From the NCBI GenBank assembly GCA_017614995.1, contig JAGAAX010000018.1, forward strand, positions 1 through 58,188: a stretch of DNA of 58,188 nucleotides, read 5' to 3'. Shown in pieces: positions 14,759 through 43,879 of the stretch (positions are counted from its first letter, which is position 1; each line of letters opens with the position of its first letter). The notes under the pieces are model-generated. The model was not told the DNA's origin, did no database searches, and was given only the letters and a program-made list of their open reading frames with translations. The translations under genes and the position numbers were made by a program. The stretch is from Spirochaetaceae bacterium. GTDB taxonomy: Bacteria; Spirochaetota; Spirochaetia; Treponematales; Treponemataceae.

Positions 14759-15979
14759 ATGAAATTAAAAGTCTGTATTGCATTTGTTGCCGCTGTTTTT
14801 GTGGCTGTACCTCTTTGTGCCCAAGAACTTGGGGATAAAATCCAAAAAGAATTTACCGTCAATGGCGAAAAAGTTACCCGCATGGTGGAATACACTGCTT
14901 TTTCTGAACATGATTCCAACGGGAAACAGATTCATTTTAAAAGAAGTAATGGATTCGAAAAATGGACAGAATACGATTCAAATGGTAATAAGATTCATTA
15001 TAAAGATAGTAACGGTAAAGAGGATTGGTCTGAATATGATTCAAAAGGTAATCAAATTCATCATAAAAAAAGTGACGGCTACGAAGAATGGGTTGAATAT
15101 TATTCAAATGGTATGAACGTCCATTATAAACAAAGCGATGGGTTAGAAGTATGGCGTGAATTTGATTCAGGTAACAGACCTATTCGCTATAAAGATAGTT
15201 CTGGTCTTGAAGGATTTAACGAATACGATTCCGCTGGAAGACTAATTCATTGGACACTTAATGATATAGAACACTGGACTGATTATGATTCAGAAGGAAG
15301 ACAAATCCATTATAAAAAAAATGAACCAGAGGAGAATTTGGAATATTGGATTGAATATGATTCAAACGGTAATCAAATTCATTACAAAAAAGATGATGGG
15401 TATGAAGCATGGTGGGAATTTAACTCAAGTGGTGAATTGATTCATACCACAACTAATGATGGTAAAGAATCTTGGTATGAATACGATTTGAATGGCAGAC
15501 AAAATCATTTAAAAAAAAGTGACGGTTTTGAATCTTGGTATGAATACGACTCAAACGGAAAAGTGATTCATTTTAAAACAACGAATGGTTACGAAGAATG
15601 GTCTGAGTATGATGTAAATGGTAATCGGATTCATTATAAAAAGAATGATGGTTACGAAGAATGGTCTGAATATGATGTAAATGGTAACAGGATTCATTAT
15701 AAAAAAAATGATGGGTATGAAGAATGGAAAGAATATGATTCAGACGGTAAAGTAATTTCTTTTAAAGATAATCAAGGTAATGAAACTTGGAATAAAGATA
15801 ATCATATTTATGCCAAATCTAGTGACGGTTTGGAATATTTGATGGAATTTGATTCAAAAGGGCTTAGAAAATATTCTAAGTTTTATAAAGATAATATATG
15901 GCATGAATTTTGGTTTGAATACACTTATTGGGAAAACGGCAAAATAAAAACGATGAAGGAATTTTCTGCTGTTGACTGA
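14759..15979 (+). CDS. Exported YD-like repeat protein
   Basis: A 406-residue secreted protein: signal peptide MKLKVCIAFVAAVFVAVPLCAQ cut after AQ, a short linker, then about 15 copies of a ~21-residue repeat from residue ~45 to ~375. The consensus is roughly W-x-E-Y-D-S-N-G-x-x-I-H-Y-K-K-S-D-G-Y-E, related to the YD/RHS and MORN-like repeats that form beta-strand ribbons. Two neighbouring units (about 15594-15656 and 15657-15719) are nearly identical 63-bp copies, showing recent tandem duplication. The ribosome site is GGAGA. Likely a surface or periplasmic binding protein; the ligand is unknown. Confidence 0.75.
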   Translation: MKLKVCIAFVAAVFVAVPLCAQELGDKIQKEFTVNGEKVTRMVEYTAFSEHDSNGKQIHFKRSNGFEKWTEYDSNGNKIHYKDSNGKEDWSEYDSKGNQIHHKKSDGYEEWVEYYSNGMNVHYKQSDGLEVWREFDSGNRPIRYKDSSGLEGFNEYDSAGRLIHWTLNDIEHWTDYDSEGRQIHYKKNEPEENLEYWIEYDSNGNQIHYKKDDGYEAWWEFNSSGELIHTTTNDGKESWYEYDLNGRQNHLKKSDGFESWYEYDSNGKVIHFKTTNGYEEWSEYDVNGNRIHYKKNDGYEEWSEYDVNGNRIHYKKNDGYEEWKEYDSDGKVISFKDNQGNETWNKDNHIYAKSSDGLEYLMEFDSKGLRKYSKFYKDNIWHEFWFEYTYWENGKIKTMKEFSAVD

Positions 15980-16251
15980 AATATCAAATGAAATTTGCCT
16001 GCTTTTCCCATTTTGAACGAATTATCAAATGAAATTTGGCTTCTTTTTCCATTTTGAAGGAAATATCAAATGAATTTTGCTTCCTTTTTGAATTTTGAGC
16101 GAAATATCAAATGAATTTTCCTTCCTTTTGTCATTTTGAACAAAATATCATTTGATATTTGGCTGAAAGTTTTATTTCCAATCAAAAATCATTTGAAATT
16201 TTACTGATTGTTTTGTTTCCAATTAAATATCAAATGATATTTGCCTTTGTG
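15978..16251. repeat. 41-bp tandem repeat array with palindromic cores
   Basis: Four regular 41-bp units start at 15978, 16019, 16060 and 16101, followed by three more diverged units. Each unit opens with an AAATATCAAATGA-type core and continues with a TTTTCC..ATTTTGA tail. In later units the core is a full inverted repeat, AAATATCA/TGATATTT, around 2 bp. The array starts one base before the end of the preceding stop codon and fills most of the 359-bp gap before the next lipoprotein gene. Confidence 0.85.
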
Positions 16252-16338
16252 CAAATATGCCCAAAAATCTGAACCCGCACCTATTCTAAATTGTATTCAT
16301 GTATTACAATGAATTAAAGTGAGAAGGTGGGGAAAACG

Positions 16339-18824: not shown

Positions 18825-18934
18825 GGCTGCCAAAAAGAGTAGAATGTCATCCCGAACTTGTTTCGGGATCTCAAAACTGCATCCAGTGCAGATGCTGAAA
18901 TAAATTCAGCATGACATCTCTTTTTTCGGCAGCC
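18825..18934. terminator. Terminator split by a palindromic repeat
   Basis: GGCTGCC plus AAAAAGAG (18825-18839) pair with CTCTTTTT plus GGCAGCC (18918-18934), a normal bidirectional terminator stem between convergent genes. The loop holds a ~78-bp insertion, the palindromic repeat at 18845-18917. Confidence 0.65.
18845..18917. repeat. Palindromic repeat inside terminator
   Basis: Starts TGTCATCCCGAACTTGTTTC, which folds as ATCCCGAA/TTCGGGAT, and ends with GATGCTGAA..TTCAGCATGACA. Same family as the repeats at 5639, 17451, 41985 and 43743. Confidence 0.75.
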
Positions 18935-20700: not shown

Positions 20701-20817
20701 AAGCTAGAAAATACCAGTCAAAAACCTCAAAGTCAATCCCAGATTCGCCCAGCTTCCTCATACGGCTTCCCTCTAATTAAAGATTTTGCTTGGCGAAAAT
20801 CCGTTACTTGCGTCCGA

Positions 20818-20850
20818 CGTACTGCTCGCATGGCAAGCCATGAGGCAGTC
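20818..20850. repeat. Strong hairpin in long intergenic region
   Basis: ACTGC and CATGGC pair with GCCATG and GCAGT around an AA loop. It lies in the 535-bp gene-free region 20701-21235, which also holds the structured element at 20910-21005 and otherwise no recognisable gene. Confidence 0.55.
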
Positions 20851-20909
20851 CGCGTCCGCAATTCACTACTTTCCGCCAGAAAAATACAATTATACAGATG
20901 TACACATAC

Positions 20910-21005
20910 AAGAACCTGCGTAGGCAGATTTTGTGATGCGAATTACATGAACACCGAAGGTGTGAATCTAATTCGCGGAACGAAATATGCCGAGAGCAGG
21001 TTCTT
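20910..21005. ncRNA. Covarying hairpin element, copy A
   Basis: A 96-bp element with nested stems: outer AAGAACCTGC/GCAGGTTCTT (20910-20919, 20996-21005); GGCAGATTT/AAATATGCC (20923-20931, 20983-20991); GCGAATTA/TAATTCGC (20938-20945, 20969-20976); tip ACACC-GAA-GGTGT (20951-20963). Copy B at 24013-24100 has the same plan with compensating base changes. Between the stems TTTGTGA and GGAAC are unchanged. It lies 231 bp upstream of the diguanylate cyclase gene. It may be a structured RNA or a small hairpin-type mobile element; strand is not certain. Confidence 0.6.
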
Positions 21006-21235
21006 ACATGGTACAATTTCTAAATTGCTTTTCATGCTGATGTCGTGCCCCTAAAAAAGATTTTGCTTTTCAAAATTAGGATTGTGGTTTATAATTAGAT
21101 ACATTTTTACAAATTAAATAACAGATTTGTTAATTTTCAACAGCTAAAAAGTCAGTATTACTAAATCGTTAAAAAATTGATGTTTTGAATTTTTGCATGA
21201 AGAACTCAAAGGAGAGTCGTTGAAGACAGACTGAC

Positions 21236-23929
21236 ATGGAGCATAATGCTGTTTTTCTGGATTTAATATTACAAAAGATGCCTGGTTATGTTCTGCTTTT
21301 TGAACTTAATCAGAAGCGTATGCCTGTATTCGACATTAACGACGATTTGCTCGAAAAACTCAACTACGATAGAAATTCGTTCTTTAAAGAATTCAGACGT
21401 TCAAGCTTATCACTTTTTTCAGAAGAAACTCTGTCCTTAATAAAACCATGTTTTGCAGATGCGTGCAAAGACAAAGACTCGCAGGATATTGAGATTCAGC
21501 TTAAAACAAAAGACGGCTTAAAAATTTGGTTTAGCTGCCGGCTTACACTGCTCAGAGATTTTCAGCCTGAACCGCTTGTTCTTGCCGTCTGCGAGGACAT
21601 AAGCTCAATAAAAGAAAAACAGGCAAAAGTAGACGCACAGTCTTCGCTTATCTCAAAGACAAAAGTAGAGCTTATACAAGAGCTTGAATACGAGCGCTTC
21701 TTAAAGCAGATAACCAACGAGTTTTACGAGCACATTTTTGAGGCAGATTTAACAAACAACAAGCTTTTAACGCACGGCTCGCTTCACGATTTCGGCATAA
21801 AGCCCAATTCAGTTGAAAACTACGATGCTTATCTGAAATTTCTTGTGCAGAACACGATTGTGCCAAAGTCAAGAAAGGAATGTCTCAAAACATATTCGCG
21901 CGAGCATCTTATTCAAGAATACAAAAACGGAAAATCACAGCTTTCGCTTCAATGCCTTGCTTCAGACCAGACCGGCAAAAATACGTTCTGGCTTGAGATA
22001 AACAGCCGCGTTTTCTTGAACCCGGCGACAGATACTTTGCGGTGCATTATTTACTGCCGCAACATCGACGAGGCAAAGCGCCACGAAATCGGGCTGCTTG
22101 AAAAAGCGCAGCAGGACTCTCTCACAATGCTGTTCAACAAGCGCACAGTCGAAACGCTGATTGACGAGCTTTTTGTGTCGTCGCCGAAAAATGCGAAGCA
22201 CGCGCTTATAATGCTAGACCTTGACAACTTTAAGAAGGTCAACGACTCGCTCGGCCATGTTTTCGGCGACAAAGTGCTTGTCGAATTCAGCCAGGAAATG
22301 CGCAAGGCGTTCCGCGAGGACGATATAATCGGAAGAATCGGCGGCGATGAGTTTGTTATTCTTGTTAAGAATTACGGCAGCATAGACACGCTGCAAAACC
22401 GTGTAAAGCAGCTTTGTGCCCGGCTTGTAAAATCTTATGACAGTTATCTTGAAAAATATTCGGTTTCGGCAAGTATTGGTGTCGCGCTTTTTCCAGATGA
22501 CGCAACAAATTACAAAGAGTTGCAGAAAAAAGCCGACAACGCGCTTTATTTTTCAAAAGGACATGGCAAGAACACATACACGTTCTTTAAGAAAGAACTT
22601 GCCTACGACAATTCGTATATTTTCCATGAGAGAGACATTGACGCGCTTATCAATTCGTCTACAGACGGAATCGGTAAATACGCTTTTGATGAGAATCTTT
22701 CGATTTTGTACTATAACAGCAGACTGCTTGAGCTTTTCGGTTTTGACGACCGCGGCCTGTCGCAGGAACAGCTTACAAACACTTTGCAGAATGTCTACAT
22801 AGAAGACAGGGCTGAGCTGCTCACTGTGTTGCGCGGTGCACTGTCGCACAAAAGCATTTTCTCTCATACTTACAGAATCGTTCATCAGCATGACGGACAT
22901 CTGGTTCATGTGCGCGTCAAAGGCATGTACACAGAAGAGCTGCACAACAGCAAATATCCGGTTTTTTATCTTCTGTATACCGATGTTTCAGACTTGGCAA
23001 GGCAGAACGAAATTATTGCCATGCAGCAGAAAGAAATGGCGATTGTCAATGACATGACGATTGACCTTATTTACGAATATGACATTGCTTCGGGCAAATT
23101 CTCAATGCTCGGCAACGATGAAGCTGATTTGACAAAGGGCATTATCCCGGAAACAAGCGTATTCAGTCATTATGTGCACCCGGATAATTTGCGCGAGTCA
23201 AACCAGAAGCTCGTTTTTGATTTATTCGATTTGCCGCAGGAGACTTTTGTTAAAGAGCTTGTTCTGCGCCATAACGAGCGCGGCGATGTTCCGGTTGTTG
23301 TTTACGGAAAGCACATTGCCGGTAAAGACGGAAAAGACGAAAAAATTGTGGGAAAAATTGCAAGCCGCGAAGCTGAAGTTAAGGCAAAGCAGGAGCTTGA
23401 CGTTACCAAGCGCATTATGGCAAGTCTTAACACAATTGCCACGCTGCTAATATCTTCTGAACTCGGCACTTTTGATGAGCGGCTTGTAAAGGTACTTGCC
23501 GTTATTGCGTCTTCGCTTAACCTTGATTCTGTTGCAATATGGCGCATTGACAGCAACGACAAGAACGAAGTGTACTCAACCTGTCTTTATTCTTGGGCTG
23601 TTGCCGGTATGCCTAAGAATAATCTTATAAGACAGAAAGGCGACCTTTCTAAAGAAGAAGGCGCGCGCTGGTATGACACAATGAAGAAAAACCGCTCGTT
23701 TACTGCAAGCATTAATACGTTAAAAACTGAAAAAGACAAAAATGCTTTGCAGCGCTACGAATTTTTCTCGATTTATATGCTTCCGATTCATATCGACGGC
23801 TCATTGTGGGGTTATCTTGAACTTGGCGACGCGACACAAGAACTTGACTTCTCAGAACAGCAGATTGGGCTTTTGAAGATGAACGCCCAACTGATAAGCC
23901 TAAGCATCCAAGAACGCCTAAAAAAATAG
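21236..23929 (+). CDS. Diguanylate cyclase with PAS and GAF sensors
   Basis: An 897-residue cytoplasmic signalling protein that should make cyclic di-GMP from GTP. Order: PAS (about 10-130), a second PAS-like region (about 150-275), GGDEF (about 284-445), two further PAS-like regions (about 460-580 and 590-700), and a GAF domain (about 725-890). The GGDEF core is intact: LTMLFNKR, LDLDNFKKVND, GRIGGDEFV (motif at 369-373), and an inhibitory I-site R-E-D-D five residues upstream. No EAL or HD-GYP domain and no membrane segment. A central GGDEF with sensors on both sides is less usual than a C-terminal one. The ATG at 21236 is preceded by AAGGAGAG some 26 bp upstream and is only moderately certain. 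Confidence 0.88.
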   Translation: MEHNAVFLDLILQKMPGYVLLFELNQKRMPVFDINDDLLEKLNYDRNSFFKEFRRSSLSLFSEETLSLIKPCFADACKDKDSQDIEIQLKTKDGLKIWFSCRLTLLRDFQPEPLVLAVCEDISSIKEKQAKVDAQSSLISKTKVELIQELEYERFLKQITNEFYEHIFEADLTNNKLLTHGSLHDFGIKPNSVENYDAYLKFLVQNTIVPKSRKECLKTYSREHLIQEYKNGKSQLSLQCLASDQTGKNTFWLEINSRVFLNPATDTLRCIIYCRNIDEAKRHEIGLLEKAQQDSLTMLFNKRTVETLIDELFVSSPKNAKHALIMLDLDNFKKVNDSLGHVFGDKVLVEFSQEMRKAFREDDIIGRIGGDEFVILVKNYGSIDTLQNRVKQLCARLVKSYDSYLEKYSVSASIGVALFPDDATNYKELQKKADNALYFSKGHGKNTYTFFKKELAYDNSYIFHERDIDALINSSTDGIGKYAFDENLSILYYNSRLLELFGFDDRGLSQEQLTNTLQNVYIEDRAELLTVLRGALSHKSIFSHTYRIVHQHDGHLVHVRVKGMYTEELHNSKYPVFYLLYTDVSDLARQNEIIAMQQKEMAIVNDMTIDLIYEYDIASGKFSMLGNDEADLTKGIIPETSVFSHYVHPDNLRESNQKLVFDLFDLPQETFVKELVLRHNERGDVPVVVYGKHIAGKDGKDEKIVGKIASREAEVKAKQELDVTKRIMASLNTIATLLISSELGTFDERLVKVLAVIASSLNLDSVAIWRIDSNDKNEVYSTCLYSWAVAGMPKNNLIRQKGDLSKEEGARWYDTMKKNRSFTASINTLKTEKDKNALQRYEFFSIYMLPIHIDGSLWGYLELGDATQELDFSEQQIGLLKMNAQLISLSIQERLKK

Positions 23930-24012
23930 CCCCGAACTCTCGCCCCGACGTAGAACCGAACCAGCCGCGAAAAAAAGAAAAGACGATAAAAGGTTTAGTG
24001 CAAATAAGAAAG

Positions 24013-24100
24013 CCTGCGCAGACAGATTTTGTGACAGAAATTGCATGAACACCTCAGGTGTGAATTAATTTCTGGAACTGAATCTGACTGCGCAGTTTTT
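24013..24100. ncRNA. Covarying hairpin element, copy B
   Basis: Same plan as copy A: AGACAGATT/AATCTGACT (24020-24028, 24081-24089), AGAAATT/AATTTCT (24036-24042, 24067-24073), tip ACACC-TCA-GGTGT (24049-24061), with CTGCGCA near both ends. It shares CAGATTTTGTGA, CATGAACACC, GGTGTGAAT and GGAAC with copy A. It ends in TTTTT, so on the plus strand it could also terminate the cyclase transcript. Confidence 0.6.
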
Positions 24101-24122
24101 GTATTAGTCTAAAATTCTGTCT

Positions 24123-26791: not shown

Positions 26792-26834
26792 GCATACACT
26801 GTTTTGCAGAACATGCAGAACAGCGTGTGCTTTT
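26792..26834 (+). terminator. Attenuator-like hairpin after binding-protein gene
   Basis: A 17-bp stem (26792-26808 with 26814-26830; two G-U pairs, one mismatch) followed by TTTT. It sits inside the TRAP operon and probably lets some transcription stop after the abundant binding protein. Confidence 0.6.
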
Positions 26835-26844
26835 ACCAAGGCAT

Positions 26845-26868
26845 CTCTAAAAACTGAACTTTTTAGAG
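26845..26868 (+). repeat. CTCTAAAAA hairpin repeat, copy 1
   Basis: CTCTAAAAA pairs with TTTTTAGAG around CTGAAC; a nearly identical hairpin is at 27512-27537. Each copy lies just ahead of the next operon gene. Confidence 0.65.
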
Positions 26869-26887
26869 GTTCCTATCAGTTCAGGTT

Positions 26888-27493: not shown

Positions 27494-27511
27494 ATCGCAT
27501 TTTCAAAGTTA

Positions 27512-27537
27512 CCTCTAAAAACTGAAGTTTTTAGAGG
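27512..27537 (+). repeat. CTCTAAAAA hairpin repeat, copy 2
   Basis: CCTCTAAAAACT pairs with AGTTTTTAGAGG around GA, 20 bases before the start codon of the permease gene. It shares sequence with copy 1 at 26845-26868. Confidence 0.65.
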
Positions 27538-27557
27538 TTCACTTAAAGGAGACATGA

Positions 27558-33059: not shown

Positions 33060-33115
33060 TAAAAAAGACGCTCATTCCATCAGACGACTATTAGCCGTCA
33101 AATCGAATGAACGCC
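33060..33115 (-). terminator. pyrG leader terminator (attenuator)
   Basis: GGCGTTCATTC (33115-33105) pairs fully, with two G-U pairs, with GAATGAGCGTC (33077-33067). An inner stem GACGGCT/AGTCGTC closes an AAT loop, and a T-run follows. It lies between the promoter and the ribosome site of pyrG. The first arm is preceded by GAACAAA, identical to the carA leader. Confidence 0.85.
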
Positions 33116-33135
33116 TTTGTTCAAAATATAGGTTC

Positions 33136-42566: not shown

Positions 42567-42624
42567 CAAAAAAAAGACGCTCATTCAATCAGAGGACACT
42601 AAGTCATCAAATTAAATGAACGCC
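42567..42624 (-). terminator. carA leader terminator (attenuator)
   Basis: GGCGTTCATTT (42624-42614) pairs with GAATGAGCGTC and is followed by nine T, then GGAG of the ribosome site. The first 17 bases GAACAAAGGCGTTCATT are identical to the pyrG leader. Confidence 0.85.
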
Positions 42625-42637
42625 TTTGTTCTTCTTT

Positions 42638-43768: not shown

Positions 43769-43879
43769 TCTGGATAAATACAGTTTTGTGCAGATTGTCG
43801 GGTCACGCCCGACAATGACATGTCATGCTGAACTTGTTTCAGCATCTGCCAGTAGATCCCGAAACAAGTTCGGGATGAC
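43743..43879. repeat. Three palindromic repeats at dapF 3' end
   Basis: Unit 1: TGTCATTACCCGGCTTGACC, with TTACCCGG/CCGGGTAA; it supplies the dapF stop. Unit 2: ATTGTCGGGTCACGCCCGAC. Unit 3: TGTCATGCTGAACTTGTTTC with GCTGAA/TTCAGC, then ATCCCGAA..TTCGGGAT ending near 43879. Confidence 0.85.

Follow-up and report, generated by a model that had tools for sequence, protein, structure and literature searches.

Two hairpins beside a diguanylate cyclase gene are copies of a family-wide, strand-specific structured repeat that is probably the core of a mobile element

Two hairpins of similar fold lie on either side of a diguanylate cyclase gene in a Spirochaetaceae bacterium, which raises the question of whether they form a unit with the gene they bracket or belong to something more widespread. 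We analyzed the 58,188-nucleotide stretch on which they reside (positions 1 to 58,188 of contig JAGAAX010000018.1, assembly GCA_017614995.1; hereafter the window), in which a first-pass annotation had proposed two copies of one element, A and B, related by compensating base changes. Both hairpins are present at nearly the positions proposed, both on the plus strand (Table 1), and the differences between their stems quoted in that annotation are compensating changes that keep the pairing. Copy A is built from a 10-bp outer stem, a GUA/GAGA internal loop, a middle stem, a GA/GA internal loop, an inner stem, GA/GA mismatches and a tip stem closed by a GAA loop. Copy B, which is 76% identical to A over 75 nt, is located between convergent genes and has the 3' end CAGTTTTTG and no terminal inverted repeats (TIRs) around its core. 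In the relative G006 the corresponding site carries its ortholog (L125), in which the base changes are compensating. When the plus strand is folded as RNA, the predicted energies are -56.2 kcal/mol for A and -47.1 kcal/mol for B, and none of 200 shuffled sequences folded as well as either (z-scores in Table 1).

Table 1. Features of the cyclase locus, in coordinates of the window
Feature	Position	Strand	Evidence
Composite MITE-like element containing copy A	20763..21047	+	Alignment with L002, L005, L006 and L021; left TIR degenerate, left end approximate
Second palindrome (TTGGCGAAAATCC...TTTCCGCCAG)	20790..20879	.	Conserved beside the core in many copies of this genome
Hairpin core, copy A	20909..21006	+	Fold z -10.3; covariance model match 111.7 bits on the + strand, 50.3 on the - strand; covariation
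Right TIR (TTTCATGCTGAT) around copy A	21030..21041	+	TIR pattern match 21030-21042; TIR and direct-repeat analysis of other copies
Diguanylate cyclase gene (PAS, GGDEF, PAS, GAF)	21236..23929	+	Pfam GGDEF, E 2.8e-39
Hairpin core, copy B (diverged)	24007..24102	+	Fold z -8.0; covariance model match 76.7 bits; site alignment

A BLAST search with A and B against the whole genome returned dozens of copies, and a covariance model made from 21 of them found 32 cores in this genome, each on its own plus strand, in addition to copies with longer inserts and partial copies. The covariance model search of genome and relatives that the first-pass annotation had suggested uncovered further copies, and their stems are kept by paired changes. 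Matches occur in 6 of the 8 genomes of the genus. A second model, built from 44 copies, matched 76 of the 274 genomes in the family, the highest count in one genome with this model being at least 15; overall, genomes that have the hairpin carry anywhere between one copy and more than 30. When 392 genomes were sampled evenly across the phylum, 18 matched, every one of them from the same bacterial family, with no match outside it, and collections of phages and plasmids contained no match except one among 2.9 million viral contigs. Rfam yielded nothing for the region of the copies, either at the gathering score or at E<=10, and for relatives only two weak matches below gathering, lying away from the core or touching only its edge; literature searches on palindromic repeats or RNAs of treponemes turned up nothing matching. 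The hairpin is a genuine structured, strand-specific, dispersed element that has no Rfam entry.

The cyclase gene itself is kept in the near relatives G001, G006 and G007. Hairpin B, however, is missing at its site in G007 and G001, and at site A G006 carries the second palindrome only and G001 nothing similar (the G007 contig starts just past site A, which it does not cover). By estimate, about 38 copies in 3 Mb would be expected to give one or two neighbouring pairs this close. Because the relatives keep the cyclase without one or both hairpins, the comparison of sites indicates that the gene is inherited normally and that its flanking by a hairpin pair is a coincidence. The proposed tie between the pair and a gene producing c-di-GMP is not supported, nor is the suggested excision of the 3.2-kb segment, the cyclase being present in relatives that lack one or both hairpins.

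How far the structure is maintained was apparent from three alignments. Among the 21 main copies of this genome, 19 of 38 base pairs have changed on both sides, with 94.4% of cells pairing; with relatives from the genus added, the values are 30 of 38 and 93.6%; and in a distant set of 42 copies, taken from 26 genomes that do not belong to the genus, two-sided changes affect 35 of the 38 pairs, including all 10 of the outer stem, while 89.7% of cells pair compared to 63.8% after shuffling. Sliding the partners by 1-3 bases in the distant set reduced pairing to 48% or less, and in none of the three alignments did any of 500 shuffles reach the observed values. Fitting the alignments to the covariance model biases them towards the structure, yet the slid and shuffled controls fall too far short for model fitting alone to be the reason.

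The unpaired bases are more constrained in some positions than in others. True constancy is limited to the internal loop that separates the outer from the middle stem (G-N-A over G-R-R-A), the GA mismatches below the tip and the GNA loop of the tip. The middle letters of the first internal loop covary, U occurring with A 43 times and G with G 22 times (shared ancestry inflates the p-values). TTTGTGA and GGAAC, described at first as unvarying, are identical in A and B and almost invariant in the main subtype of this genome, whereas other subtypes and species have GGGA/GGCAC or GGCG/GTGAC instead. The tip stem, likewise thought to be constant, also changes across the family with its pairing kept. 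In eight loci (L017, L020, L022, L026, L027, L030, L057 and L060), the inner stem has been swapped for unrelated, longer palindromes without loss of the outer stem, a pattern that looks like insertion of palindromes at the tips of hairpins, and the second palindrome nests likewise.

Arm-to-arm repair acting alone would produce G-T and A-C mismatches equally often. In this genome, GT/TG mismatches outnumber AC/CA mismatches by 57 to 2, the A-C cells being confined to 2 pair positions, and at the well-paired positions of the distant set G-T outnumbers A-C by 46 (16 positions) to 7 (4 positions). Of the two strands, the plus strand has the stronger fold in 42 of 44 and in 39 of 42 copies, and covariance model scores reach about 110 bits on it as opposed to about 50 bits on the minus strand. 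This asymmetry of mismatches therefore places selection on the fold of the plus strand, as RNA or as single-stranded DNA. We conclude that the fold of one defined strand is under selection and that arm-to-arm repair does not explain the mismatch bias; together with the covariation, the excess of G-T over A-C strongly supports the earlier suggestion that single-strand structure is what is selected. That suggestion had left the choice between RNA and folded DNA undecided, and both remain readings of the selected plus-strand fold, with RNA favoured.

Many copies in this genome, A included, sit inside inverted-repeat composites, the clear ones measuring 284-432 bp, with TIRs of the form CTTCAGCATGAAA / TTTCATGCTGAAG, a pattern that matches 62 times in this genome versus 3 times for a control pattern. 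Direct repeats of 9-15 bp lie just outside the TIRs in 6 of 15 composites versus none of 210 mismatched pairings. The composite of copy A has no clear flanking duplication, hairpin-only copies (B among them) have flanking direct repeats no longer than those of mismatched controls, and the flanking duplications of elements in G165 do not exceed controls. The second palindrome is also dispersed by itself, as at site A of G006. Other species surround the core with outer inverted repeats of their own: those of G165 are AGGGCNAATGTCGAGTTT-like, G079 has two kinds and G208 has ACGGAAATCAATTTT. Terminal repeats therefore vary from species to species, and even inside a single species; with termini this different between species, one transposase cannot serve all. 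Loci L252 and L253 on the one hand and L255 on the other, from different species, have exactly the same core, but its direction is reversed with respect to arms of about 30 bp, and the intergenic site between patatin-like and hsp20 genes holds the core in opposite orientations in G002 and G004; the core can thus flip or insert in either direction.

Other repeats occur in the window. A palindromic sequence of about 60 nt, GACGCTCATTC...GAATGAACGCC, is found in two copies (33061-33122 and 42570-42631; 85%) that differ in their middles and may represent a further hairpin family, and an inverted pair of a CAGCATGACAT-type repeat (18888-18930 and 43807-43849) is apparently another dispersed palindrome. 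CCTCTAAAAACTGAA.TTTTTAGAGG appears twice (26829-26872 and 27497-27540), around a small gene adjoining TAXI/TRAP-like transporter genes. Tandem repeats of 63 nt (14835-15806) encode repeats of about 21 residues rich in EYDSNG, and just downstream are 41-nt tandem repeats based on ATCAAATGAAATTTG (15972-16258).

On these grounds we regard A and B as, probably, copies of a family-wide structured core of about 100 nt that belongs to a non-autonomous, MITE/REP-like mobile element and is read as a single strand, most likely RNA. Mobility is supported by the TIRs, by the flanking direct repeats, by the empty site B of two relatives and by the absence of the core from site A in G006 and G001. The composite unit would be moved in trans by a transposase that is absent from the assembly or unrecognised in it. 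The core would act when its plus strand becomes single-stranded, the likeliest form being RNA transcribed across the insertion. This strand would form a rod, and a trans-acting protein may bind or cut it at the purine internal loops and the GNA tip; the effect could be to stabilise the transcript, to process it or to terminate it, or it could lie in the movement of the element itself.

Bacterial MITEs such as NEMIS/Correia, ERIC and MITEAba12 resemble the element in being short, non-coding, dispersed in intergenic DNA and equipped with inverted repeats, and the composite form in this genome has both TIRs and target-site duplications; hairpin-only copies such as B have no target-site duplication. 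The difference is that conservation across species falls here on the folded core of a single strand instead of on the termini, and that among the enzyme families searched (Y1/HUH, DDE_Tnp_1 and reverse transcriptase) no parent transposase was found. The draft assembly, which is about 95% complete and may have lost repeats, encodes no Y1/HUH transposase (PF01797), no IS4-type DDE_Tnp_1 (PF01609) and no reverse transcriptase (PF00078), and a search for an autonomous copy with the TIR pattern in four relatives revealed no recurrent transposase-like ORF beside the TIRs. Mobilisation by RAYT/IS200 and a retro-element served by a resident reverse transcriptase were accordingly rejected for this genome.

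A first alternative is that the core acts as single-stranded DNA, folding on the lagging strand or in the course of transfer, and that the enzyme reading the hairpin is an HUH transposase, as in REP/IS200 systems, or a recombinase, as with attC sites. The fold is strand-specific and, computed as DNA, still well beyond what shuffled sequence gives (z -8.8 for copy A, -6.4 for copy B), and GNA loops and GA mismatches are stable in DNA. Dispersal is REP-like as well: the GTAG-tagged REPs and REPINs that go with RAYT (PMC3733652) are also palindromic, intergenic and strand-specific, and the GYAG that immediately precedes the middle stem in this genus is reminiscent of the REP GTAG tag. The hairpin is nevertheless 100 nt long as compared to 20-40 nt in REPs and shows no REPIN pairing, the tag reads GGAG, GGAA or GTAA in other species, and Y1 transposases are lacking in this genome despite its 32 copies and likewise in G004 and G006, whereas the two genus members that have one contain few or no hairpin copies. 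Like attC sites, the core has variable arms and a conserved strand-specific fold, but the 7-bp cleavage boxes (RYYYAAC/GTTRRRY) are not found at the base of the stem, where 10 of 10 outer-stem pairs vary on both sides, nor do copies alternate with cassette genes. Relative to GC skew the count is 24 of 38 copies, which is no clear bias towards one replication strand. We consider a single-stranded DNA core rather unlikely. RNA is favoured over it on two grounds, namely that the kinds of hairpin-reading DNA enzyme searched for were all absent and that the bias among codirectional copies follows transcription; both arguments are weak, and RNA is the more probable form of the core.

Copies are dispersed in intergenic DNA and their placement relative to gene direction varies. 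By simple open-frame gene calls, 14 of the 38 copies in this genome lie between divergent genes and 4 between convergent genes, while next to codirectional neighbours 15 copies are in sense and 5 in antisense orientation, a weak bias that is not evident in relatives. Across 70-odd loci no convincing recurrent neighbour protein emerged: setting aside ORFs that lie in the repeats themselves, recurrence was limited to ABC ATPases and two hsp20 sites, and these were judged to reflect chance or local synteny.

More doubtful is the idea that a structured RNA or single-stranded DNA hairpin is common across the family to MITE shells with unrelated ends and that the folded core is itself needed for spread; if true, it would make this a DNA mobile element that moves by a conserved nucleic-acid fold rather than by conserved termini. 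A stand-alone small or regulatory RNA with a cellular function, copied around by MITEs, strikes us as improbable. It would account for covariation beyond shuffles on one strand that is as strong as in known RNA families, for constant internal-loop bases of the kind that define Rfam families, for the covarying non-canonical loop bases (UA/GG) and for the excess of sense copies in this genome; the hairpin, known here from DNA sequence, differs from Rfam RNAs in matching no Rfam family and in being multi-copy and mobile, and against a cellular role stand its patchy distribution and variable copy number, the lack of a conserved neighbour gene, the opposite orientations at the patatin-like/hsp20 site in two species and the failure to see a common promoter or terminator. 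It is very improbable that the copies are ordinary bidirectional intrinsic terminators, or neutral palindromes with arms homogenised by repair, and as a full account this is refuted by the strand asymmetry: many copies in related species do have A-rich 5' and T-rich 3' arms and B ends in a manner and place that would suit a terminator, but termination has no need of constant unpaired bases and copies between divergent genes exceed those between convergent ones.

The usual explanations for dispersed palindromes are conserved ends or neutral repair between arms. Here, covariation of 35 of 38 pairs across genera and strand-biased mismatches demonstrate selection on a single-stranded fold in a repeat that has no known enzyme. 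The covariance model is ready for use in finding what reads the fold, and the copies provide a natural series of compensated mutants for distinguishing RNA from single-stranded DNA.
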